A stretch of 64,000 nt of DNA from assembly GCF_023566055.1 (NCBI RefSeq), contig NZ_JALIQP010000002.1, positions 744,001 through 808,000 on the forward strand. The letters run 5' to 3'. The position numbers and the translations under genes were made by a program. Positions 24,376 through 43,449 of this stretch are shown here, one piece after another. The DNA is from Halosolutus amylolyticus. GTDB taxonomy: Archaea; Halobacteriota; Halobacteria; Halobacteriales; Natrialbaceae. The notes under the pieces are model-generated. The model saw only the letters and a program-made list of their open reading frames with translations, was not told the origin of the DNA and did not search any database. Within the stretch, counting starts at the first letter, position 1. The number at the start of each line of letters is the position of its first letter.

Positions 24376-24477
24376 GTCCGATCGTGGTCGCTGGTCGGGA
24401 AAACGATGGCGAAGCCGACTTCCGTTCCGGCCGGGGTCCGTTCGCCACGCCGAACAGTCAGGGCAGTCACGAAAGGG

Positions 24478-24485
24478 AACTATTT
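24478..24485 (+). promoter_or_regulatory. TATA-like box of the KaiC-like gene
   Basis: AACTATTT lies 26-33 bases before the ATG at 24511. Its position supports that start for a leaderless transcript over longer versions of the frame. Confidence 0.45.
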
Positions 24486-24510
24486 CGCCGACCGTCGTAG
24501 CACCGGCGTC

Positions 24511-25518
24511 ATGAGCGAGCACCTGCGGACCGGGGGGACACCCCAGTATCCGCTCCAGTGCGATCACTGTCACTACCCGATCCCGGGCGAACCGAAAGAG
24601 CGCGGTGACGGCCACTACTGCTCCGGGAGCTGTCGCGAGGCCGCCGACGGCGAGTCGACCATGCCCGACCCCGACGCCTACAAACGCGTCGTGACCGGGA
24701 TCGAACCGCTCGATTCGCTCGTACCGAACGGGATCCCGGCGGACTCGTTTCTCCTCCTCTCCGGTGACGAGGGCACCCGCCGGAGCGAACTCCTGACCGA
24801 ACTCGTCTGGCGCGCGATCGAACGGGGCGAACCCGCGGTCCTCGTCTCCTTCGCCGATCCGCCGACGGCGACCCTCGAGCGGTTCTTCGGGAACGGCTGG
24901 AACGTCCTCCCCGCGCTCGAGACCGATCGGCTCCGGATCGTCGACTGCTTCACCCATCGGCTCTCGGACCGCGAGGCGTTCCTCGAGAGCCGCAACGAGT
25001 GGCAGACGTTCGTGGGCGAGGCCGCGGCGGACTCGATCGTCACCGTCGAGGAACCGGACGACGGGCCGGCGGTGGCCGACGCGTTGCACGAGGCGCTGGA
25101 CGCACTCGAGATGACCGAAACGGGGCTGGTGACGATCGACTCGCTGGACGAACTCGGCCGATTGCTCCAGCGGGATCGGGTCCACGACTTCGTAACGGAG
25201 GTTCGCGGAACGATCTGTACGCCCCGGTACGTGCCGATCGTCGCGGGGGCGACGACCGCCGGAAGCGACAAGTATCCGGAGGATGAGTACGTCTTCGACG
25301 GGATCGTCGACCTGCGACTGACGGACCAGTTCACGCCCGAGACGCGACTCAAGCAACTCGGGGTGCGCAAACTGATCGGGACGCAGTTCCTGCCGCAGTG
25401 GATCACCTACGAGTACGAACCGGCCCGGGGCCTGTTCGCGTTCGGCTCCTCGACGGACGCGCGAGAGGTGTACGACTACGACTTCGGGAACGGACCTCGC
25501 GCCGTCGACCGCCGGTGA
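24511..25518 (+). CDS. Zinc-finger/KaiC-like RecA-fold protein with degenerate P-loop
   Basis: A 335-residue cytoplasmic protein with two parts. Residues 14-45 hold a four-cysteine knuckle (CDHC at 17-20, CSGSC at 37-41) likely to bind zinc. From residue 58 there is a RecA/KaiC-like domain beginning VVTGIEPLDSLVPNGIP, the usual lead into Walker A, but the P-loop itself reads SGDEGTRRS (84-92) where GxxGxGK(T/S) is expected, so the lysine is missing. The Walker B-like strand is TGLVTIDSLDELG. ATP hydrolysis is therefore doubtful; it may sense or sequester a partner. The ATG at 24511 follows a good TATA-like box. Confidence 0.82.
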   Translation: MSEHLRTGGTPQYPLQCDHCHYPIPGEPKERGDGHYCSGSCREAADGESTMPDPDAYKRVVTGIEPLDSLVPNGIPADSFLLLSGDEGTRRSELLTELVWRAIERGEPAVLVSFADPPTATLERFFGNGWNVLPALETDRLRIVDCFTHRLSDREAFLESRNEWQTFVGEAAADSIVTVEEPDDGPAVADALHEALDALEMTETGLVTIDSLDELGRLLQRDRVHDFVTEVRGTICTPRYVPIVAGATTAGSDKYPEDEYVFDGIVDLRLTDQFTPETRLKQLGVRKLIGTQFLPQWITYEYEPARGLFAFGSSTDAREVYDYDFGNGPRAVDRR

Positions 25519-25594
25519 GACGGGGCCGCGAACCCGTCACACGGAGGCCCGATCGGCGGTCGAACGGCTGCAAGCGAACGCGCGCCGTGCTTTT

Positions 25595-25613
25595 ATTCGC
25601 CTGATAGGCGAAT
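25595..25613. promoter_or_regulatory. Tight hairpin/operator-like palindrome before the Arg/Gly-rich gene
   Basis: ATTCGCCT-GAT-AGGCGAAT is an 8-bp perfect inverted repeat with a 3-base loop. It directly follows TTTT, and together they read CTTTTATTCG, a plausible TATA box, about 73-91 bases before the ATG at 25686. It could be an operator, an mRNA 5' hairpin, or the terminator of the preceding gene (stop at 25518). Confidence 0.45.
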
Positions 25614-25685
25614 CACCGCCTGCAAAACGAACGTAGCGACGGCCATCAGCGCGGCATCCGGGCGAGACGCCACTCTACACCAATC

Positions 25686-27548
25686 ATGAACGACCGATAC
25701 GACGACGACCGGCGACGGCGGGACCGACGAACCGACCGACAGCACGAGGGCGATCGGTATCGCGGCGACGATCGCGGCCGGAATCGAAGCGGGGACGATC
25801 GCGGCCGGAATCGAAGCGGGGACGATCGCGGCTGGCTCCACGGACTGTTCAGCCGCGGCGAGGGCGAGAAACGGGGACGCGGCGATCGGGGGGGACAGCA
25901 CGAGACCGAAGACCGACGGCCGACGGACACGCCCTACGGCGAACCCGGCTGGGGCCAGAGCCCCCGGGCGCAGGGCGACCGCGACAGAGGTCAGCGGCGT
26001 CGCCAGGAAGGCCACCAGGGCCGCCAGGAGCGGGATACCGGCTGGCGACGGGAGGACCAGTCCGAGGGCCGCAGCCAGCGTGAAACGCCACGCGAGGGCG
26101 ACCGCGGCCGCAGTCGACACGACCGTCAGGAGCAGTACGGAGCCCAGGAAAACGAGGGGTTCGAAACCGACGCGATCGAAGAAGGAACGCTCGAGTACGG
26201 CGGAGAGGCGCGCCGCGAACGGCACCAGCAGGGTTCGCACGAAATCGAAGGAGCCGGCGGGCAACAGTACGGTGCCGAGAGACGGGGCGAGTATCGCCGT
26301 GAAGAGTACGGCCGCGGGGGACAACGGCGCGGTCAGCCAGACCGCGGGGGACAACGGCGCGGTCAGCCAGACCGCGGGGGACAACGGCGCGGTCAGCAGG
26401 ACCGCGGAGGACAACAGTACGAACAGCGCGGTCGCAGACCGGAACGGCACGAACAGTACGATCGTGGGCAGCGAAACCGGCAACGCGGCGGACAGCAACG
26501 GGCCCGCGACCAGCGGCGCCAGCGTGGCGAGCGCGGTCGACAGGGTCGACAGCGGATGGATCGCGGTGACCAGCGACGTGGTCGTGGGGACCGCCGCGAT
26601 CGGAGCCAGCACGATCACGAAATGCACCAGCGCCAGGGGCGACAGGAACAGCAGCGAGGCCGCGATCGAGGCGGCGGTCGCGACCAGCGTCGAGGTGGCG
26701 GCCGTGATCGGCGGACAGAAGGTCGCGGCGGCGAGGAGCGAGCGAGCTTCCACACTGACGCGATCGGCGAATCGGACCTCCAGTACGGCGGGGAAGCACG
26801 CCGCGAAGGCCGCCAGCAGGGCCAGCGAAGGCCCGAACCTCAGGGAGAGCGTCGGCGCGATCAACGGAGCCCCGAGGGGAGCCAGCGCGGTCGACAGGGC
26901 CGCGGGGAGTACGGACGCGAGGAGCAACAGTACGGCCAGCAGGGTCGACAGCAGATGGGCCGCGGGGACCGCCAGCACCAGCGCTCACCACGGGGAGGTC
27001 AGCAGGACCAGCCAGCGGGCGGCCAGCACGGCGGACGGGACCACCACGGGGAGCGCGGCCAGCGTGATCGGCGCGATCGGGAACGGCAGGGTCCCGAGAA
27101 GCGCTGGCACGAGGAACGCGACACCCACCAGCACCGATCGGGCCAGCCCCAGGGCGGGCGACACCAGCGGAGCCAGGGCTTCCGCGGGCGACAAGAGCAG
27201 GGCCAGACTGGGCAGGGGAGTCGACACGAGTCCCGGCGAAGCGACCGCGGCCAGGACGAACCGCAGCGCGACGTCCGCAGTCAGGACGAGCTCCGTCGTG
27301 GAACCGGCGAGACGTCTCGGGACCCGCAACGAGCGACGGATCGGACCGGCGGCGGCCTCGAGTACGAACCCGACCGGCCGCGCGACGAATCCGGTAGCTG
27401 GACCGCGGAGCGATCAACCGACGATCGGGACCGGGATCAGCGACGAGAACGCGACTCACGGACGGACGAGGACGAGAGCAACCGGCGCCACGTCCACGAG
27501 CAGGATCCGACCGACGAGAGCCGACGCGATCGGGGCGAATCCGAGTGA
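25686..27548 (+). CDS. Arg/Gly/Gln-rich low-complexity protein with repeated TDAI...YGGEARRE motif
   Basis: This 620-residue protein is dominated by Arg, Gly, Gln, Asp and Glu in RGG/RGGQ-like runs, and appears basic and unstructured, the opposite of normal haloarchaeal proteins. It has no membrane helix. Two near-identical 20-residue motifs, FETDAIEEGTLEYGGEARRE (159-178) and FHTDAIGESDLQYGGEARRE (355-374), mark it as real coding sequence, as does a degenerate third form near the C-terminus (GGGLEYEPDRPRDE). An N-terminal GWLHGLFSRGEG and PYGEPGWGQSP add aromatic patches. A 30-base unit encoding RGGQRRGQPD is repeated three times. By analogy with RGG proteins it may bind nucleic acid or form condensates, but this is inference. 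Confidence 0.7.
   Translation: MNDRYDDDRRRRDRRTDRQHEGDRYRGDDRGRNRSGDDRGRNRSGDDRGWLHGLFSRGEGEKRGRGDRGGQHETEDRRPTDTPYGEPGWGQSPRAQGDRDRGQRRRQEGHQGRQERDTGWRREDQSEGRSQRETPREGDRGRSRHDRQEQYGAQENEGFETDAIEEGTLEYGGEARRERHQQGSHEIEGAGGQQYGAERRGEYRREEYGRGGQRRGQPDRGGQRRGQPDRGGQRRGQQDRGGQQYEQRGRRPERHEQYDRGQRNRQRGGQQRARDQRRQRGERGRQGRQRMDRGDQRRGRGDRRDRSQHDHEMHQRQGRQEQQRGRDRGGGRDQRRGGGRDRRTEGRGGEERASFHTDAIGESDLQYGGEARREGRQQGQRRPEPQGERRRDQRSPEGSQRGRQGRGEYGREEQQYGQQGRQQMGRGDRQHQRSPRGGQQDQPAGGQHGGRDHHGERGQRDRRDRERQGPEKRWHEERDTHQHRSGQPQGGRHQRSQGFRGRQEQGQTGQGSRHESRRSDRGQDEPQRDVRSQDELRRGTGETSRDPQRATDRTGGGLEYEPDRPRDESGSWTAERSTDDRDRDQRRERDSRTDEDESNRRHVHEQDPTDESRRDRGESE
26311..26405 (+). repeat. 30-bp tandem repeat inside the Arg/Gly-rich gene
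   Basis: Three consecutive 30-base units (CGCGGGGGACAACGGCGCGG and ten more bases each) encode RGGQRRGQPD, RGGQRRGQPD and RGGQRRGQQD. The multiple of three keeps the frame. A two-copy 27-base repeat (encoding DDRGRNRSG) lies at about 25767-25821. Both are expansion-prone and point to length variation between strains. Confidence 0.75.
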
Positions 27549-27627
27549 GGAGCCACGCCGATCGATCCACACCCGAACGCGTCCCGAAATCGAGCCCGTT
27601 TTTGTCCGTCTCGTTCACACTCCCGGT

Positions 27628-28041
27628 ATGGGCGGCACGTACGTGCTCGTGATCGACGTTCCGGAGCCGATCGAGATCGACGTCGGCGCGCTCGGTACCC
27701 ACGAATTCGAGGCCGGCGCGTACGCCTACGTCGGTACCGCGTTCGGACCCGGCGGCTTCGCCCGCGTCGATCGGCATCGCGAACTCGCTCGCGGCGAGCG
27801 GGACGTCCGCCACTGGCACGTCGACTACCTGCTCGGCCACCCCGAGACGGGACTCGAGACCGCGATCACGTTCCCCGACGCCGATCGAGAATGCGAGCTA
27901 GCCGATCGGCTGCCGGGCGATCGGATCACGGGATTCGGGGCCTCGGACTGTGACTGTCCGGCCCATTTGCTGGCCGCGCCCGACGCCGAGGCAGTCCGCG
28001 AGGCGGCGACGGCCGACGGCGGTAGGCTCGCGGACGAATGA
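27628..28041 (+). CDS. GIY-YIG/DUF123 family nuclease-like protein
   Basis: A 137-residue cytoplasmic protein of the DUF123 branch of the GIY-YIG superfamily. It shows the opening GGTYVLVIDV, the YIG-like AGAYAYVGTAFGPGGFARVDRH with the arginine position of the nuclease core, and RHWHVDYLLGHPE. The C-terminal DCDCPAHLL carries two cysteines and a histidine that could bind a metal. Some members have endonuclease activity, but the cellular role is not established. The ATG at 27628 is preferred because the protein then starts at the first core strand; the long open frame before it belongs to another gene. Confidence 0.9.
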   Translation: MGGTYVLVIDVPEPIEIDVGALGTHEFEAGAYAYVGTAFGPGGFARVDRHRELARGERDVRHWHVDYLLGHPETGLETAITFPDADRECELADRLPGDRITGFGASDCDCPAHLLAAPDAEAVREAATADGGRLADE

Positions 28042-29259: not shown

Positions 29260-30294
29260 ATGACGAACGATCTCCCTTCCCGCGACGATCGCTGGTCGCG
29301 TCGACGCGTCGTATCGGCAGTTGGGGGTACCGCAGTTGCCGGACTGGCTGGCTGTATCGGGAGCGGCGACGAGGACGACAGTAACGACGGGCCCGTCGCC
29401 GTTGCATCCTTCTTTACGTTCTATGATTTTGCGAGGCAGATCGCTGCGAAGACGCCCGTTTCGGTCGAGAACCTCGTTCCGACGGGGATGCACGGCCACG
29501 GCTGGGAACCGGATCCATCGATCCAGCGAGATATCACCGACGCGGACGCGTTCCTCCACGTCGGCCCCGACTTCCAGCCGTGGGCCGATCGAGCGATCGA
29601 CACCGTCGGAGCCGAGGCCCAGGAGACGCACCTGATCAACGTCCGCGAGGGAGTCGAACTGATCGACCTTGCCGACAGCCTCGACGACGACGAGGCGGTC
29701 GGGGACGCAAAGGACCCCCACTTCTGGCTCGATCCCGAGCTGGCGATGACGTCGGTCGACAACATCGCCGACGGACTGGCCGAAATCGCGCCGGATCACG
29801 AGGAGACGTTTACCGAACACGCCGCCGAAGTCAAGTCGGAGCTCGAGACACTCGACGAGGAGTGGCAGGCGCTCTTCGATGCGACCGAGCGTGACGTCCT
29901 CTTTTTGGCCGCACACAACGCGTTCGCGTACGTGGCCGAGCGCTACGACGTAACGATCGAACCGCTCGTCGTCAACCTCGCGGCCAACGACGACGTGCGC
30001 CCTACAGATATGCAACGCGCACAGGAGACGATCGCGGAAAACGACATCCAGCATATCGGTGCCGCTGTCTTCGAACCGATTCGACCTGCTCAACAGCTAC
30101 TCGAGCAGACGGACGTCGAGGCGTACTATCCGGTGACGCCGTACGCCGGGACGGCCGAATCGTGGGCTGAGCGCGGTTGGGGCTACTTCGACATCGCACG
30201 CAACGTCAACATGCCGACGTTCCGTCTGCTCGCAGGCGCCGCCTCGCCTGACGAAGTAACCTTCGAGGACTACGGTCGGAACTTCGAGCCGTGA
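29260..30294 (+). CDS. Metal ABC transporter substrate-binding lipoprotein (ZnuA/TroA type)
   Basis: A 344-residue extracellular solute-binding protein of the cluster 9 (TroA/ZnuA) family, which captures zinc or manganese. The twin-arginine signal WSRRRVVSAVGGTAVAGLAGC ends in a lipobox cysteine (residue 32), so it is a Tat-exported lipoprotein. Metal ligands are expected at the histidines in TGMHGHGWEPDP and KDPHFWLDPE, the histidine in AAHNAFAYV, and an acidic residue in the C-terminal lobe (VFEPIRPAQQ). The long histidine-rich loop of typical ZnuA is absent, which leaves Zn and Mn both possible. It leads a three-gene operon with ATPase and permease. Confidence 0.92.
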   Translation: MTNDLPSRDDRWSRRRVVSAVGGTAVAGLAGCIGSGDEDDSNDGPVAVASFFTFYDFARQIAAKTPVSVENLVPTGMHGHGWEPDPSIQRDITDADAFLHVGPDFQPWADRAIDTVGAEAQETHLINVREGVELIDLADSLDDDEAVGDAKDPHFWLDPELAMTSVDNIADGLAEIAPDHEETFTEHAAEVKSELETLDEEWQALFDATERDVLFLAAHNAFAYVAERYDVTIEPLVVNLAANDDVRPTDMQRAQETIAENDIQHIGAAVFEPIRPAQQLLEQTDVEAYYPVTPYAGTAESWAERGWGYFDIARNVNMPTFRLLAGAASPDEVTFEDYGRNFEP

Positions 30295-30301
30295 GACACT
30301 C

Positions 30302-31084
30302 ATGACACAACCCCAATCCAACGTCCGTAGCGATCGTGCCGACCCCATCGTCGACGTCGAGGACGTCTCGTTCGGCTACACGGCGAGTCCGGTCGTCGAG
30401 GACATCTCGCTCACCGTCGAGCGCGGCGAGTACGTCGGGATGATCGGTCCCAACGGCTCCGGAAAGAGTACGTTGTTGCAACTGATACTCGGGCTGCACG
30501 AGCCCGACGAGGGCCAGGTCGAACTGCTCGGCCACCCCGCGCGTGCGTTCGCCGAGCGCGAGAAGGTCGGCTACGTCGCTCAGGACGTCACCGAGAACAC
30601 CAAGCGAATGCCGATCACCGTCGCGGAAGTCGTCCTGATGGGCCGATTCCCCCACGTGGGCTTCGGCCGCGTCACCAGCGACGACCGCGATCGGGCTCGG
30701 CAGGCGCTTCGAACCGTCGGCATCGACCACCTCGCCGATCGGAAGATCACGCAGCTGTCCGGCGGCCAGCGCCAGCGCGCGTACATCGCCCGCGCACTCG
30801 CCGGCGAGGCCGAACTGCTCGTGCTCGACGAGCCGACGGTCGGCGTCGACGCGGAGTCCGTCGACGCCTTCTTCGACCTGCTCACGGACCTCAACGACGA
30901 CGGGATGACTATCCTGCTGGTCGAACACGATATCGGGGCCGTCCTCGAGCACACCTCGCGCGTGATCTGTCTCAACCGCGAGGTGTACTTCGACGGCTCC
31001 CCCGCCGCGTTCGCCGACAGCGACGCGCTCGATCGCGCCTACGGGACGAACGTTCGACGTGATGACGGGGTGGTGGTATCGTGA
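30302..31084 (+). CDS. Metal ABC transporter ATP-binding protein (ZnuC type)
   Basis: A 260-residue ATPase that powers metal uptake. Walker A is GPNGSGKST near residue 58, the signature is LSGGQRQRAYIARAL, Walker B is LLVLDEPTVGVD and the switch histidine is in LLVEHDIGAV. It starts eight bases after the stop of the binding-protein gene, and its last codons overlap the GTG start of the permease by four bases. This order and coupling match known zinc/manganese importers. Nothing in the sequence fixes the metal. Confidence 0.93.
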   Translation: MTQPQSNVRSDRADPIVDVEDVSFGYTASPVVEDISLTVERGEYVGMIGPNGSGKSTLLQLILGLHEPDEGQVELLGHPARAFAEREKVGYVAQDVTENTKRMPITVAEVVLMGRFPHVGFGRVTSDDRDRARQALRTVGIDHLADRKITQLSGGQRQRAYIARALAGEAELLVLDEPTVGVDAESVDAFFDLLTDLNDDGMTILLVEHDIGAVLEHTSRVICLNREVYFDGSPAAFADSDALDRAYGTNVRRDDGVVVS

Positions 31085-32067
31085 CTGGGTCAGCCGCCGT
31101 GGTTGCGATCACGAGCGTTCCCTACGACGCACTCGACTGGTTGATCCAGCGCTGGAGCGACGAACTCAGAGAGATCGGTGCGGAACTCGGCATCGAGATG
31201 CTCGAGTACACGTTCATGCACCACGCGTTTCTCGTCGGTGCACTCATCGCCGTCATGGCCCCGCTGATCGGGACCTTCCTGGTGCACCGACAGCTGGCAC
31301 TCATCGGCGACGCCCTCGCTCACACCGCGTTCGCTGGCGTCGCGGTCGGCCTGTTCGTCAACGCGACGTTCGGGACCGGCATCTCGCCGTACGTCACGGC
31401 CGTCGTCGTGGCGATGATCGCCGCACTCGCGATCGAACTGATCTCGGAGGTCACGGACGCCTACAACGACGTCTCGATGGCGATCGTCCTCTCGACCGGG
31501 TTCGCACTCGGGGCCGTGCTGATCAGCCTCAACACCGGTGGCCTCGCGGTCGGGATCAACCAGTACCTGTTCGGCAACCTCGCGACGGTGTCCCGGGAGA
31601 ACGCGATCATCCTGGTCGTCCTCTTCGTCGTCGTCTCGCTCGTCGTCACGCTGACGTACAAACAGCTCCTGTACGTGACCTTCGACGAGACCGCCGCCCG
31701 GGTCGCCGGACTCAACGTGCCCTGGTACAATCGACTCGTGGCGATGCTCACCGCGATGGTCGTCGTCGGGGCGATGCAGATCATGGGCGTCATCCTCGTC
31801 GCCGCGATGCTCGTCGTCCCGGTCGCCAGTGCCGCACAGTTCGCGCGCGGCTTCAGGGAGGCGCTGCTGGCGTCGGTCGTCCTGGCACAGCTTGCAGTCC
31901 TCGTCGGCATCACCCTCTCCTACCAGTACGAGACGACGGCCGGCGGGACGATCGTTCTCGTCGCCGTCGGAATCTACATCGGAACCATCCTGCTCGGGAA
32001 GGTACAGTCCCGCCGGGCCGACGTCGAGGAGACGCAGCCGATCCCGGACGAGCAGACGGCGGACTAA
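31081..32067 (+). CDS. Metal ABC transporter permease (ZnuB type)
   Basis: A 328-residue integral membrane protein with eight or nine helices of the ABC-3 family. HHAFLVGALIAVMAPLIGTFLV starts the core, and RQLALIGDALAHTAFAGVAVG is the conserved cytoplasmic coupling motif of zinc/manganese permeases. VVGAMQIMGVILVAAMLVVPVASA is another family signature. The GTG start at 31081 overlaps the ATPase gene as GTGA, so translation is coupled. About 45 extra residues precede the first helix. The stop at 32067 is followed by a non-coding gap before the convergent gltB. Confidence 0.92.
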   Translation: MTGSAAVVAITSVPYDALDWLIQRWSDELREIGAELGIEMLEYTFMHHAFLVGALIAVMAPLIGTFLVHRQLALIGDALAHTAFAGVAVGLFVNATFGTGISPYVTAVVVAMIAALAIELISEVTDAYNDVSMAIVLSTGFALGAVLISLNTGGLAVGINQYLFGNLATVSRENAIILVVLFVVVSLVVTLTYKQLLYVTFDETAARVAGLNVPWYNRLVAMLTAMVVVGAMQIMGVILVAAMLVVPVASAAQFARGFREALLASVVLAQLAVLVGITLSYQYETTAGGTIVLVAVGIYIGTILLGKVQSRRADVEETQPIPDEQTAD

Positions 32068-38023: not shown

Positions 38024-39508
38024 CTAATACGACTTCGCGAAGTACGCGATCTCCTCGGCGTCGTCACCGCAGACGCCGCACGTCGCGTCGTCGTCGGGAC
38101 GGACGGGTTCGCCCGCGCTCGCGCCGCCTTCCTCCGCCAGCGGCTGCATGACGATCTCGGCGGCGATCTTTTCCTTGATGGCTTCCTCGCAGGCCTGGTC
38201 GCCACACCACGGCGTCTTCACGTAGCCGCCGTGTTTGCCGATCGTCCCGAGGATCTCCTCGGGGCTGTGGGCTTCTCGGACGTTCTCCTCGAGGGTCTCT
38301 TCGGCCGTCTCGTAGAGTTTGTCGTAGATCGCGTCGAGGTTCTCCTCGACGGTCTCGACGAGCCCCTCGCGATCGGCGACGACGTTCTCGGTGTCCGGCC
38401 GGTGGACGAGCGTGACCTCCTCGTCGTCGACCTCGTTGGGGCCGATCTCGATTCGGAGGGGGACGCCGTTGAGTTCGTGCTCGTTGAACTTGAAGCCGGG
38501 ATTGCGCTCGTCGCGATCGTCGAGTTCGACGCGCAGACCCGCGTCCTCGAGTTCCTCGGCGATCGTCTCCGAGTAGTCGAGCACCTTCTCCTTGGTGTCG
38601 GCCTGCCAGATGGGGACGATCGCGACCTGGGTAGGTGCGATGGTCGGTGGGAGGACGAGCCCCTGATCGTCCGAGTGGGTCATGATGAGCGCGCCGAGTG
38701 CGCGCCAGGAGAGCCCCCACGAGGTGGTGTAGGCGGTCTGTTCCTCTTCGTCCTCGTCGACGAAGGTGATGTCGAACGCGTCGGCGAAGCTCTGGCCGAG
38801 GTGATGGCTGGTTCCCCCCTGGACGGACTTGCCGTCGGGCATCAGCGCCTCGACCGTCGTGGTCGTGTCCGCGCCGGGGAACTTGTCGTGTTCTGGCTTC
38901 TTGCCGCGAAGAACCGGGATGGCAAGCACGTCCTCGTAGACGCGTTCGTACTGGCTCAGCCGCGTCCAGACCTCCTCCCAGGCCCCCGCGTCGGTCGCGT
39001 GGGCGGTGTGACCTTCTTGCCAGAGGAACTCCTTCGTCCGGAAGAACGGCTTGGTCTCGGTGGCCTCCCAGCGGACGACCGAACACCACTGGTTCAGCCG
39101 CAGCGGCAGGTCGCGGTGGCTCCGGACCCACTCGGCCATGAAGGGCGCGATGATCGACTCGCTGGTCGGGCGGACGGCGAGTCGCTCCTCGAGTTCGTCG
39201 TGGCCGCCCTGGGTGACCCAGGCTACCTCGGGGTCGAACCCTTCGACGATGTCCTTCTCGCGCTCGAGGTAGCTCTCCGGGATGAACATCGGGAAGTAGG
39301 TGTTCTGGACGCCGGTCTCCTTGAACCAGCCGTCCAGCGCGTCCTGGATCGACTCCCACAGCGCGTAGCCGCGGGGCTTCGTGACGATGAACCCGCCCAT
39401 CGGCGCGTAGTCCGCCAGCCCTGCCTTCTGGACGACCTCGGCGTACCACTCGCCGGGTTTGTGCGATTTCGACTCGGTGATCCCGAGTTCCTGACTCTCG
39501 TCGCTCAT
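38024..39508 (-). CDS. proS: Prolyl-tRNA synthetase (archaeal/eukaryotic type)
   Basis: A 494-residue class II aminoacyl-tRNA synthetase that charges tRNA-Pro. Motif 2/active-site stretches are LAVRPTSESIIAPFMAEWVR and LNQWCSVVRWEATETKPFFRTKEFLWQEGHTAHAT; QGGTSHHLGQSFADAF is motif 3-proximal. The anticodon-binding domain follows (TQVAIVPIWQ), then the C-terminal zinc-binding extension with CGDQACEEAI and CGVCGDDAEE, and the typical final tyrosine (AKSY). The start at 39508 (MSDESQELGITESKSH) fits other haloarchaeal enzymes. The gene stands alone. Confidence 0.96.
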   Translation of the reverse strand: MSDESQELGITESKSHKPGEWYAEVVQKAGLADYAPMGGFIVTKPRGYALWESIQDALDGWFKETGVQNTYFPMFIPESYLEREKDIVEGFDPEVAWVTQGGHDELEERLAVRPTSESIIAPFMAEWVRSHRDLPLRLNQWCSVVRWEATETKPFFRTKEFLWQEGHTAHATDAGAWEEVWTRLSQYERVYEDVLAIPVLRGKKPEHDKFPGADTTTTVEALMPDGKSVQGGTSHHLGQSFADAFDITFVDEDEEEQTAYTTSWGLSWRALGALIMTHSDDQGLVLPPTIAPTQVAIVPIWQADTKEKVLDYSETIAEELEDAGLRVELDDRDERNPGFKFNEHELNGVPLRIEIGPNEVDDEEVTLVHRPDTENVVADREGLVETVEENLDAIYDKLYETAEETLEENVREAHSPEEILGTIGKHGGYVKTPWCGDQACEEAIKEKIAAEIVMQPLAEEGGASAGEPVRPDDDATCGVCGDDAEEIAYFAKSY

Positions 39509-39723
39509 ACATCGACTCACTGCCACGGCGGGCTTAAACCATGCGAAGGATAGTCCCGGAAGTCGGATAACTGTGGCTTCGGTTTTCCTCTCCGATGAGA
39601 CCGACCGGCGCCGACTGGCCTGGGATCCCTCGGTAGCGTCGACGAACAGTTTTTCCGCAGGCTATCTGAGACACCCCACTTTCGATCCAGCTTATCAGTC
39701 GTTCTCGGGTATCCGGGCCGCGC

Positions 39724-40605
39724 TCAAACGCATTCGTCGACCACTTTTGTACACGAAACCGGGACTGCGAGACCACACGATCCAGTAACGCAGAGTACAC
39801 ATCCCGCTACTGCTGGCGGGTTAACCGGTGCTGAACCACACGCAAGGAAACAGGCGGAACAGATCGTGATGCTCCCCATACACTTGAACGCCCAGGTATC
39901 ACAGCTACTCGTCGTAACGACCTCGTCCGTCTCCATCGACGAGAGGTCCGTCACCTCCGAACTGGCACCCGCACTGATATTCGCGTTCGAACTGTTCGCT
40001 GGTGGCTCGACGAGGTACGCTCTGGGCTCCGCGTCTCGAGCGGTCGCGTTATGTTTCGAATGGATTTCAAATCCGTCGATGAGCGAGTTGTAGAACATGA
40101 CGGCCTCGTCCGAATCGACGCCCGTTTTCTTCGTGAGGCGTCGTTGTTCCGCCGGCGTCGCCGCCCGCATGAAGACGACCCCTTCTCTGGCGTCGATCGT
40201 GAGTATCGCCTCCTCGGCTTGCGGAGGAAAACGGTATTTCTGCGGAAGCTGACTTCGAGACTTCCCTCGACTAGCCTGTTGATCGAACTCGAACAACGCG
40301 GTCGCACCACCGTTTCCGTCTTCCCCGTAGGTGAGGGTGCCAAGCTCCGTCTCGAGGTCGATTCCAGTGATGACCCAATCTCCGACGGTCACCTGCCGAG
40401 TAGATACGTCGATGATCTCTGGGTGGCCGAGCTCGGCGAGCATCGACTGGACGTACTCCGACTCGAGTGCCCGCTCTTTCGCTTCATCTGGTTCGACCAC
40501 GCTGTCGGCCGTGGTAATCCCGGTTGACACAACCAGCCCACTTGCGGCCGTACCAGCGCTCTTCAAGACTTTTCTCCGATTGACCCCACTGTCATCAGCC
40601 GGCAT
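39724..40605 (-). CDS. Halocin C8-like precursor, copy A
   Basis: A 293-residue secreted precursor. The N-terminus (VNRRKVLKSAGTAASGLVV) is a Tat-type signal. Residues about 40-230 form a conserved soluble domain; in halocin C8 the equivalent region acts as immunity protein. Residues 235-293 are a hydrophobic core with ten cysteines spaced C-x6-C-x6-C-x2-C-x3-C-x12-C-x2-C-x4-C-x7-C-x6-C. Halocin C8 also has ten cysteines in a C-terminal peptide released from a Tat precursor, so this is most likely a microhalocin. Its own TATA-like TTTAGTATC lies about 25 bases upstream. Copy B lies 1269 bp away on the same strand. Confidence 0.82.
   Translation of the reverse strand: MPADDSGVNRRKVLKSAGTAASGLVVSTGITTADSVVEPDEAKERALESEYVQSMLAELGHPEIIDVSTRQVTVGDWVITGIDLETELGTLTYGEDGNGGATALFEFDQQASRGKSRSQLPQKYRFPPQAEEAILTIDAREGVVFMRAATPAEQRRLTKKTGVDSDEAVMFYNSLIDGFEIHSKHNATARDAEPRAYLVEPPANSSNANISAGASSEVTDLSSMETDEVVTTSSCDTWAFKCMGSITICSACFLACGSAPVNPPAVAGCVLCVTGSCGLAVPVSCTKVVDECV
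39918..40293 (-). repeat. Near-identical block in halocin-like copy A (pairs with 41187-41562)
   Basis: This 376-bp block aligns without gaps to 41187-41562, offset 1269 bp, with about 20 mismatches by hand count. It encodes residues about 105-230 of both precursors. The match ends five codons before the first core cysteine. Confidence 0.85.
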
Positions 40606-40645
40606 AGAAAGTAATTACGCATCTAGATACTAAAGATTTACTAAA

Positions 40646-40831
40646 TTATTTACTGAAACATATATAGGACAGGACCAGTAGTGAAAGTACTGCGATAGCT
40701 GCACTGAACAGCCATAACTGAGAATTTTCAGGCCCAGATGAACGCATGAAGGCGGGGAAGAGGGCCAATAGAGATCCGATGACCAGGATTATGAGTGCCG
40801 TACATAACCGAGTATTGTCTCCCATATTCAT
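40646..40831 (-). CDS. Two-helix small membrane protein within the halocin-like locus
   Basis: A 61-residue protein with two hydrophobic helices (LCTALIILVIGSLLALFPAF and LWLFSAAIAVLSLLVLSYICF) separated by a short polar loop (MRSSGPENSQ). It is encoded on the same strand as the two halocin-like precursors and ends 40 bases before copy A. A TATA-like TTATTTTATC sits about 20-29 bases upstream, so it may also be transcribed alone. Small membrane proteins beside peptide-toxin genes are often immunity or export accessories; this role is inferred only from position and shape. Confidence 0.6.
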   Translation of the reverse strand: MNMGDNTRLCTALIILVIGSLLALFPAFMRSSGPENSQLWLFSAAIAVLSLLVLSYICFSK

Positions 40832-40989
40832 TCACACATCGTACTAGATAAAATAACTTTCCGTCAAATTCATCGTTATTCTACAGAAAGATCAACGTAC
40901 TCGATATCGACCACGGCCGAAACCTGCCATCAGTTCCATCCGGGAGATCTCGTACTGAAAAGTCAGCGCGAACGATCTTCGGCCGTTCG

Positions 40990-41874
40990 TTATCCACAAT
41001 TATCTATCAATTTCTTGCATGCATACGGAAGGGCGACGACACACGAAGTTCCGACACACGTCGCACATGCGAGGACTCCGCCGACGGTAGTTAGTGGAAT
41101 TGAGGCACACGCCATAATGCAACTCCCACACCACGTTATCGATAATCCGCAGTTAGTCGCCCAGGTTGCACAACCACTTGCAGCGACGACCTCATCCGTC
41201 TCCATCGACGAGAGGTCCGTCACCTCCGAGCTGGCACCCGCACTGATATTCGCGTTCGAACTGTTCGCTGGTGGCTCGACGAGGTACGCTCTGGGTTCCT
41301 CGTCTCGAGCGGACGCGTTATTTTTCAAGTGGATTTCGAATCCATCGATGAGCGAGTTGTAGAACATGACGGCCTCGCCCGAGTCGACGCCCGTTTTCTT
41401 CGTGAGGCGTCGTTGTTCCGCCGGCGTTGCCGCCCGCATGAAGACGACCCCTTCTCTGGCGTCGATCGTGAGTATCGCCTCCTCGGCTTGCGGAGGAAAA
41501 CGATATTTCCTCGGGAGTTGACTCCGGGACTTCCCTCGACTAGCCTGTTGATCGAACTCGAATAGTGCGGTTGTATTACCGCTCTCATCCTCACTATAGG
41601 AAAGAATACCGAGGTCCGTCTCGAGGTTGATTTTGGTTATTTCCAGACTTTCGATGGTCACCTTTTCTGCCGAGACACCTGCGATTTCTGGTTGATCGAG
41701 TTCGTCGAGCAGCGATTGAACGTACTCCGACTCGAGTGCTCGCTCTTTCGCTTCGTCCAGTTTGGCTGAACCAGTGGCTGTGGTGACCCTCGCCGAAGCG
41801 ACGATGCTGCTTACAGCAATTCCAGCATTTTTCATCATATGCCTTCTATTGACAATGTTGTTATCACCACTCAT
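40990..41874 (-). CDS. Halocin C8-like precursor, copy B
   Basis: A 294-residue paralogue of copy A with the same architecture: Tat-type N-terminus (VNRRHMMKNAGIAVSS), conserved soluble domain, and a cysteine-rich core at residues 235-294. The ten cysteines have the same spacing as in copy A except x13 rather than x12 in the longest loop. The conserved domain is nearly identical to copy A, while the core residues between cysteines differ strongly (CGLSITWCGSCIMAC against CMGSITICSACFLAC). The start at 41874 matches copy A; an ATG three codons upstream is also possible. A TATA-like TTTTAAATAATG lies 22-34 bases before it. Confidence 0.82.
   Translation of the reverse strand: MSGDNNIVNRRHMMKNAGIAVSSIVASARVTTATGSAKLDEAKERALESEYVQSLLDELDQPEIAGVSAEKVTIESLEITKINLETDLGILSYSEDESGNTTALFEFDQQASRGKSRSQLPRKYRFPPQAEEAILTIDAREGVVFMRAATPAEQRRLTKKTGVDSGEAVMFYNSLIDGFEIHLKNNASARDEEPRAYLVEPPANSSNANISAGASSEVTDLSSMETDEVVAASGCATWATNCGLSITWCGSCIMACASIPLTTVGGVLACATCVGTSCVVALPYACKKLIDNCG
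41187..41562 (-). repeat. Near-identical block in halocin-like copy B (pairs with 39918-40293)
   Basis: Second copy of the 376-bp block. Most differences cluster at its upstream-coding end (around 41506-41540), consistent with the edge of a conversion tract or simply divergence after duplication. Confidence 0.85.
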
Positions 41875-42176
41875 GACATACATAACAATATCCGCATTAT
41901 TTAAAACTTTATTGTTTTAGTAAGTTAAATATTCTCCATAACAGATATATGTTACAAATCCGAATCTCGATGAAACCACTGTCGGCCTATTTATCCACTT
42001 TCGCCTGCTCCTTCGAGGACGTCCTCGAAACGGACGAGATCGCCCTGATACAGGTCGGTACCGTGATTCGACACGGCAATCCTTCGGCTTACGTCGTACG
42101 ACGAGTCGAGGTCTTCAGCACTGCGAGTAGGTGGGCACAGTTACGAACCGATGATTGTCTGTCGAGAACCGAACTG

Positions 42177-42401
42177 TCACGAACTGGCGCCTCGGACCGA
42201 CTGGGTCGAAGGGTTCTGGAGGGGCACATCTACGGGATCTTCGTCAACGACCTCGGTACGTTCGAACAGGTAACTCGTCGCGGTCGAGGCGGTGATACCG
42301 GTGACGTCTCAGGGCACGCACACGATCGCGACCGTTCTGTTCGCTACCCCGACTACCGAAAGAGAAAGTCGAGTGATACCAGATTCGATCCTGACAGACA
42401 C
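42177..42401 (-). pseudogene. Possible decayed small gene with an in-frame TGA
   Basis: Reading from GTG 42401 the frame gives VSVRIESGITRLSLS, then GVANRTVAIVCVP, a TGA stop at 42309-42311, then DVTGITASTATSYLFERTEV and an acidic tail ending in TGA at 42177. Sequence on both sides of the internal stop has plausible haloarchaeal composition and stays in one frame. It could be a remnant of a larger gene; the family is not recognised. Confidence 0.25.
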
Positions 42402-42447
42402 GAGAACTACTTACAACGATTAGACGGTTCCCGTCAGTTCTCAGCCC

Positions 42448-42454
42448 TTTATAC
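42448..42454 (+). promoter_or_regulatory. TATA-like box of the quinone oxidoreductase gene
   Basis: TTTATAC lies 24-30 bases before the ATG at 42478, correct for a leaderless haloarchaeal transcript. Confidence 0.5.
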
Positions 42455-42477
42455 AGCAGGCCTTCGAACGGAACCGT

Positions 42478-43449
42478 ATGCGTGCAATCGAGGTAACCGA
42501 ATACGGCGACAGCGACGCGCTCGAGATTATCGACGCTGACCTTCCCGAACCGGACGCGAGCGAGGTCCGGATCAACGTCGAAGCCGCGGGGATCAACTTC
42601 GCCGACATCATGCAGCGCCGGGGGCTCTACCCGGGCGGGCCGGACGCGCCCTACGTCCCCGGCATGGAAGCCGCCGGAACGATCGACGCGACTGGCGAGG
42701 GCGTCGGCTTAGACGAGGGCGATCGGGTCGTCGCGATGCTCAACGGCGGCGGCTACGCCGAGTACGTCACGGCTGACGCGCAGATGCTCTTTCCCATCCC
42801 GGAGGGGATGAGTTTCGAGGAGGCCGCGGGCTTTCCAGTCCAGTTCCTCACTGCTCACTCCTGTCTGTTCGAGTGGGGCGGACTCGAAGAAGACGAAACG
42901 GTTCTGATCCAGGCCGCCGCGGGCGGGGTCGGGACGGCCGCCGTCCAGTTAGCCTCGAACCACGGCGCGGAGGTCTTCGGGACCGCGAGCACGCAAGAGA
43001 AACTCGACCTCGCGGCCGATCTGGGCTGTGACCACCCGATCAACTACACCGAGACGGACTTTCGGGAGGTCGTCGACGAGGAAACCGACGGCGAGGGCGT
43101 CGATCTCGTCTTAGAGAGCGTCGGCGACGACGTCTTCGATCGCAGCCTCGACGCGATGGCCCACTTCGGGCGGATGGTCACCTTCGGGGTCGCGAGCGGT
43201 GTCCCCGCGAGCGCCGAGAACCAGCGGCTCCTCTTCGAGAACAAGACCGTCAAGGGGTTCCACCTCGGGCAGGCCGCCTATCACGATCCGGGCAAGATCA
43301 TGAAAGCCGTTCCCGACCTCACGCAGGGACTCACGAGCGGGGACCTCGAGGTCGTCCTCGGCGAATCGTTCGCGCTCGCGGACGCCGCCGAGGCCCACCA
43401 GTACATCGAAGACCGCAAGAGCGCCGGGAAAGTCGTCCTGACGCCCTGA
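42478..43449 (+). CDS. qor: Quinone oxidoreductase (zeta-crystallin type, MDR family)
   Basis: A 323-residue cytoplasmic NADPH-dependent medium-chain reductase without catalytic zinc. The N-terminal GroES-like domain has EAAGINFADIMQRRGLYPG and PGMEAAGTIDATGEGV; the coenzyme domain has LIQAAAGGVGTAAVQLA (the AxxGGVG motif) near residue 145. VDLVLESVGDDVFDRSLDAM and the C-terminal SAGKVVLTP are typical. It reduces quinones or enones and probably helps in detoxification. A good TATA box lies at 42448. It is monocistronic. Confidence 0.93.
   Translation: MRAIEVTEYGDSDALEIIDADLPEPDASEVRINVEAAGINFADIMQRRGLYPGGPDAPYVPGMEAAGTIDATGEGVGLDEGDRVVAMLNGGGYAEYVTADAQMLFPIPEGMSFEEAAGFPVQFLTAHSCLFEWGGLEEDETVLIQAAAGGVGTAAVQLASNHGAEVFGTASTQEKLDLAADLGCDHPINYTETDFREVVDEETDGEGVDLVLESVGDDVFDRSLDAMAHFGRMVTFGVASGVPASAENQRLLFENKTVKGFHLGQAAYHDPGKIMKAVPDLTQGLTSGDLEVVLGESFALADAAEAHQYIEDRKSAGKVVLTP

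Follow-up and report, generated by a model that had tools for sequence, protein, structure and literature searches.

A family of predicted disordered, multi-motif proteins of Natrialbaceae with a gene-specific promoter-like element

The gene, its reading frame and its genomic slot

We analyzed a stretch of 64,000 nucleotides of Halosolutus amylolyticus (contig NZ_JALIQP010000002.1, positions 744,001 to 808,000 of the forward strand; hereafter, the window), which contains an ORF that starts with an ATG at 25686 and closes with a TGA ending at 27548. An earlier note on this DNA had described this frame as a 620-residue basic protein rich in Arg, Gly and Gln, and both its extent and its length proved exact. 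The features of the locus are listed in Table 1. Orthologues were found in the same genus (405 aa, genome G002), in other Natrialbaceae and in Halopiger goleimassiliensis (Natrialbaceae).

Table 1. Positions of the gene, its conserved blocks and its neighbors in the window
Feature	Position	Strand	Basis or remark
KaiC-family ATPase, upstream neighbor	24472..25518	+	Pfam PF06745, synteny; syntenic landmark
Promoter-like element TGCAAGCGAACGCGCGCCGTGCTTTTA: upstream element, two half-sites 10 bp apart, then TATA box	25569..25595	+	
Leader/promoter-proximal region, putatively transcribed, with moderately conserved blocks	25596..25685	+	Alignments of 12 and ~40 members
CDS of predicted disordered R/G/Q-rich protein, 620 aa	25686..27548	+	ORF list, orthologues, dN/dS, stop counts, AlphaFold
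N-terminal conserved block MNDRYDDDRR	25686..25715	+	Alignments; kept even in 83-aa and acidic orthologues
Tandem repeat GDDRGRNRS, 27-bp unit x 2.6	25762..25832	+	
Conserved block DRGWLHGLFSRG, hydrophobic cluster (WLHGLF)	25824..25859	+	D47, R48, G49, W50, L51, G53, S56 and R57 invariant, 9 sequences
Motif copy 1, FETDAIEEGTLEYGGEARRE	26160..26219	+	Orthologue alignment
Tandem repeat RGGQRRGQPD, 30-bp unit x 3.5, in length-variable spacer	26312..26415	+	
Motif copy 2, FHTDAIGESDLQYGGEARRE	26748..26807	+	196 codons after copy 1; single copy in most orthologues
Conserved block EKRWHEERD	27096..27122	+	Orthologue sequences, regular-expression count
Conserved block GRHQRSQG	27156..27179	+	R492, H493, Q494, S496 and G498 invariant, 9 sequences
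Conserved block GGGLEYEPDRPRDESGSWT, further LEY-type element	27348..27404	+	Kept in acidic short orthologues L109, L112 and L122
C-terminal conserved block DEDESNRRHVHEQDPT	27465..27512	+	R, R and H invariant, V and H nearly so (19 sequences); kept in 83-aa L066
DUF123 protein, downstream neighbor	27628..28041	+	Pfam PF01986, synteny; syntenic landmark

We compared 12 pairs of orthologues and obtained dN/dS values of 0.18–0.41 in the codon frame, with roughly double the number of changes at codon position 3 in the same pairs, whereas the other two sense frames gave values of 0.87–3.6. Both alternative sense frames contained stops in all of the 44 long members, and the antisense frame sharing the wobble position, despite its similarly low dN/dS, accumulated 569 stops over these members. 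Because the codon frame shows low dN/dS and the other sense frames are stop-ridden in homologues, the comparison indicates that the ORF is a coding gene and that its frame is under purifying selection. Regular interruption of the frame in homologues, which the earlier note had named as an argument against its reading, was not observed: nearly all orthologues were open. Our extraction of members required an open stretch; however, the scoring of profile hits continued across stops, and almost none of the hits contained one. The copies in genomes G052 and G054 look broken or frameshifted.

Very long overlapping ORFs occur in other frames of the window (25849-27840 on the minus strand and 26080-28041 on the plus strand, the latter running into the DUF123 gene). 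They arise because the sequence is T-poor and GC-rich, and since homologues carry stops in the other sense frames, they should not be annotated as genes. These ORFs and an unusual codon-position GC (GC3 of 0.73) would favor the view that the real product is an RNA or comes from another frame, and that the openness of the present frame reflects GC-rich, T-poor DNA with few stops. However, this view is hardly tenable: it is ruled out by the dN/dS values and stop counts, the start (MNDR) and the C-terminus are conserved in frame, and Rfam gave no match. The GC3 of the gene compares with 0.85 expected from the codon usage of its neighbors and is low in several orthologues as well; weak translational selection or a young repeat expansion may be the cause, and the less biased codon usage argues against very high expression.

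A survey of one genome per species identified a single-copy orthologue in approximately 57 of 125 Natrialbaceae genomes, representing 17 of 29 genera; the tally is approximate, since one assembly includes a run of N and two or three of the copies appear to be broken. No convincing relatives were found outside Natrialbaceae in a partial sample of the order (392 genomes), in which hits in 18 other genomes (E values of 0.004–0.1) were at chance level. An origin from a mobile element, virus or plasmid was also considered and set aside, as viral contigs and plasmids yielded no relatives. As judged from this distribution, the gene is single-copy, vertically inherited and dispensable or accessory in Natrialbaceae.

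The gene occupies a constant slot, with an epimerase-like gene (a label taken from the sequence of that gene rather than from a family search) and/or the KaiC-like ATPase gene upstream, and genes for the DUF123 protein and a CMD-domain protein downstream, followed by glutamate synthase. The KaiC-like and DUF123 genes were considered as operon mates or partners, without support: both occur without the gene, and the gene is also present where neither homologue was detected alongside. These neighbors are therefore landmarks and not demonstrated partners. Other genomes have clean empty sites, with DUF123 immediately after the KaiC-like gene, and two relics just upstream of DUF123 (L197 in G072 and L196 in G087) lack the gene body but retain the promoter and start region, suggesting that the gene was lost. 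In the same slot and behind the same promoter, three orthologues (L109, L112 and L122 in G088, G089 and G092) encode proteins of 161–169 aa with a pI of ~4, suggesting that within a single family a basic or neutral disordered protein has become acidic. Orthologues of 83 and 155 aa in the same slot retain the N- and C-terminal blocks only.

Farther downstream, a ZnuABC-like zinc/metal ABC transporter operon (Pfam ZnuA, ABC_tran and ABC-3; 29260-32064) lies between the CMD gene and glutamate synthase, and glutamate synthase follows CMD almost directly in several relatives (e.g., L055 and L062). The GC content of the window falls from ~0.66 to ~0.52 at about 39000-43000, which suggests that this segment is foreign or mobile.

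A promoter-like element found at one gene

A 27-bp element with the consensus TGCAnGCGAnCnCrCGC...TTTA is located ~90 nt before the ATG. It was found with three or fewer mismatches in 38 of the 42 members scanned, versus ~8 mismatches in shuffled sequences, and it occurs once in its own genome. Across the 125 family genomes we obtained 51 matches (46 at the gene, 2 at the relics and 3 elsewhere), and a reversed control pattern gave 10; empty sites lacked the element. The search also recovered a full member (G103) that the protein profile had missed. With a single occurrence in its own genome and fewer off-locus matches in the 125 genomes than control matches, the element was rejected as the signature of a regulon. 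Its position and TATA box suggest that it works as the gene's own promoter, and we infer a transcription start for the leader, which had no Rfam match. By these searches, the element is present as a single copy per genome, conserved across Natrialbaceae genera and specific to one gene.

Composition, conserved blocks and spacers

The protein is composed of 24.4% R, 17.6% G, 13.1% Q, 10.6% E, 10.2% D and 0.3% K, and its pI is 10.81, compared with 4.1–4.7 for 9 of the 10 neighboring proteins computed. By charge count it is only mildly basic (R+K 153 versus D+E 129). Members of the family range from 83 to 759 aa in length, from –41 to +46 in net charge and from 4.1 to 11.7 in pI; most have a net charge per residue of ~0 to +0.08. 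Lys accounts for 0–0.6% of residues across members, and low Lys is also common in haloarchaea generally. Of 48 members, 45 had a more even mixing of charges than shuffled sequences, although the members are related and do not amount to 48 independent tests. Most orthologues are polyampholytes with well-mixed charges that nearly cancel, and short, acidic orthologues also occur. A strongly basic charge was rejected as a conserved property because charge varies widely and some orthologues are acidic; the contrast between a basic protein and an acidic proteome drawn in the earlier note thus holds for the Halosolutus protein (neighbors ~4.5) but not for the family, in which acidic orthologues have a pI of ~4.

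The same note had described the protein as made of RGG/RGGQ-like repeats. Compared with composition-preserving shuffles, RG (39 versus 26.7 expected), RGG (10 versus 4.7) and RGGQ (7 versus 0.7) were in excess, and DR exceeded the shuffles even more than RG. Under published spacing definitions (PMC9957100), the protein contains neither di-RGG nor tri-RGG (RGG spaced by 0–4 residues) and has 8 overlapping tri-RG hits (three RG spaced by 0–4 residues; 1.1 in shuffles). Among 48 members, 22 have a tri-RG and 7 a di-RGG. The enrichment was accordingly borne out, but canonical RGG boxes are absent from this protein and not conserved in the family. On these sequences, basicity and RGG boxes are traits of some members and not of the family. 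With 17.6% Gly, a GRAVY of –2.52 and a mean hydrophilicity of 1.23 (Hopp-Woods), the protein lies within the compositional limits of hydrophilins (Gly >6%, GRAVY < –1, mean hydrophilicity >1; PMC4190154), as do 29 of 48 members; 19 of the 48 fall short of the hydrophilicity threshold.

AlphaFold, given 18 sequences, returned a mean pLDDT of 44.5, with 532 of 620 residues below 50, and the sole predicted helix (256-291) falls in a non-conserved Arg/Gln-rich stretch. The protein is thus modeled as lacking a fold and is predicted to be disordered, as had been expected in the earlier note.

Conserved blocks occur in a fixed order: MNDRYDxDRR, DRGWLHGLFSRG (lost in several lineages), FETDAxxxxNLEYGGEARxE, QRWHExRD, GRHQRSxG, GGGLEYxxxxRRSExGxWT and DxDMSNRRHVHExDPT. 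These approximately seven short motifs hold most of the few Leu and many of the Trp, Tyr and Phe residues of the protein. We considered WLHGLF as a PCNA-interacting (PIP) box and rejected it, since Q and the first aromatic residue of the consensus are absent. In 11 pairs of sequences, the blocks were 88% identical and 5% gapped, and the spacers 70% identical and 14% gapped, a comparison that favors the blocks because they were defined from the same family.

The two copies of the YGGEARRE motif, TDAIEEGTLEYGGEARRE (residues 161-178) and TDAIGESDLQYGGEARRE (residues 357-374), are 18 aa each, lie 196 codons (588 bp) apart and are identical at 41 of 54 bases. In an alignment of 18 sequences, F159, T161, A163, L169, Y171, G172, G173, A175 and R176 were conserved at 90% or more. 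Orthologues carry one to three copies, mostly one. The pattern L[EQ][YHF] was observed 94 times in 44 members versus 3.2 expected, with at least two copies in 31 of the 44; YGGEAR thus belongs to a wider set of LEY-type elements, with one to four copies as a rule. The suggestion in the earlier note that two such motifs are docking elements under selection survives in part: the alignment indicates that the motif is selected and plausibly serves in docking, but a conserved spaced pair was ruled out, with a single copy each in G002 and G001, mostly one in the others and two or three in a few.

Proposed function and comparable disordered proteins

Database searches yielded no known family. None of 18 members matched an NCBIfam family, and their only Pfam match was a weak one to a collagen repeat (E 0.006). 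Six members gave no Pfam family at E values of up to 10, the LEA, KGG and hydrophilin models included; no RNA-binding domain was found in the Pfam searches of members, and the PDB contained no family match. The collagen-repeat hit and a PDB hit to prunin (E 0.07) were dismissed as low-complexity matches, and we found nothing relevant in the literature on haloarchaeal disordered, RGG or phase-separating proteins. As far as these searches reach, the proteins form an undescribed family of the general kind of disordered multi-motif proteins, which are neither RGG nor LEA proteins.

We consider an accessory, regulated, disordered multi-motif scaffold to be the best explanation, with a rough probability of 0.42. 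In such a scaffold, a flexible chain would carry multiple motifs, of which the repeated LEYGGEAR-type elements, the WLHGLF cluster and the C-terminal RRHVH block would serve as docking sites for partner proteins or for one another, and the spacers of Arg, Gly, Gln and acidic residues would keep the chain soluble, expanded and adjustable in length in a cytosol of several-molar KCl. The dedicated promoter would switch the gene on under a sensed condition. The protein has the layout of stickers and spacers, a disordered chain in which spacers lie between several conserved, sticker-like motifs, and this interpretation is supported by the fast evolution, repeat-proneness and variable length of the spacers. 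However, the motifs could be conserved for a purpose other than docking, and the family must have some function besides that of a long scaffold, because the long spacer and most motifs are missing from the 83-aa and the short acidic orthologues.

A stress protectant of the hydrophilin or LEA type, in which a hydrophilic, Gly-rich chain shields macromolecules during desiccation or salinity change and the motifs add little to composition, is a rather unlikely alternative. High Gly, a very low GRAVY, high hydrophilicity and predicted disorder are shared with hydrophilins and LEA proteins (including group 1 LEA and KGG/GsiB-type repeats), and a dedicated promoter element also agrees with this idea. 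As a lead only, YGGEARRE faintly resembles the GG..R.E core of group 1 LEA. However, neither a permissive Pfam search nor the composition of all members places the family there, its set of motifs and promoter are its own, and the position-specific conservation of the motifs exceeds the needs of a compositional shield; moreover, the composition criteria have been called insufficient in themselves (PMC4190154). We consider it quite improbable, too, that the protein is a haloarchaeal RNA-binding protein of the RGG/RG type that forms RNA condensates, as proposed in the earlier note. Like eukaryotic RGG/RG (GAR) proteins (fibrillarin, FUS, Caprin-1 and hnRNPs), it has Arg/Gly-rich disorder, RG and RGG above chance, and tri-RG by the published spacing rule. 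Unlike them, it lacks di- and tri-RGG and a folded RNA-binding domain, is Gln-rich, has Glu and Asp in numbers nearly equal to Arg and is dominated by other conserved short motifs; furthermore, tri-RG occurs in less than half of the orthologues, and charge is not conserved, with acidic orthologues in existence.

It is also possible, although unlikely, that function resides in the two termini (M[NT]DR... and GGGLEY...W...RRHVH) and that the long middle is a nearly neutral, slippage-driven and harmless expansion of low complexity. The 83-aa and 155-aa orthologues reduced to their terminal blocks, the wide range of lengths and the tandem repeats in the spacers agree with this. In contrast, dN/dS is well below 1 across whole long genes, the middle motifs FETDA...YGGEAR and GRHQRS are conserved over genera, and charge mixing is non-random.

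The alternation of motifs and spacers in the scaffold could sustain condensates at high salt, held together by contacts that are Arg-mediated or otherwise non-ionic. In vitro, high salt brings Arg-rich peptides, but not Lys-rich ones, back into a condensed phase owing to the hydrophobicity of Arg (PMC9705477), and FUS and other proteins show high-salt re-entrant condensation through hydrophobic, non-ionic contacts (PMC7889641). The present protein resembles these Arg-rich proteins (protamine with hyaluronate, FUS and PR25; PMC9705477, PMC7889641) in that its cation is Arg (24% R, 0.3% K) and its working environment is of high salt. However, those observations were made in vitro on unrelated proteins, and the present chain is nearly charge-balanced. 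By this analogy, the near-absence of Lys in a molar-salt cytosol may fit Arg-driven condensation at high salt, but weakly, given how common low Lys is in haloarchaea, and condensation of the protein in the saline cytosol is possible; the driving force would be limited because aromatic residues are few (about 3-4%). It is doubtful that the scaffold forms a native condensate at molar KCl that dissolves or rearranges when salinity drops, such that the chain reads intracellular salt.

Haloarchaeal proteomes are strongly acidic, and this acidity is the usual explanation of protein solubility in molar KCl. A selected, single-copy, near-neutral-to-basic family of Arg-rich disordered proteins is a testable exception to this rule, and it raises the questions of how solubility and specificity of a disordered chain are maintained once charges are screened, and whether cells contain high-salt condensates. 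In addition, the family offers an evolutionary series in one slot behind one promoter, from 83 to 759 aa and from acidic to basic, together with empty sites and relics. Such a series in a single syntenic slot is unusually good material for telling conserved motifs from drifting spacers.
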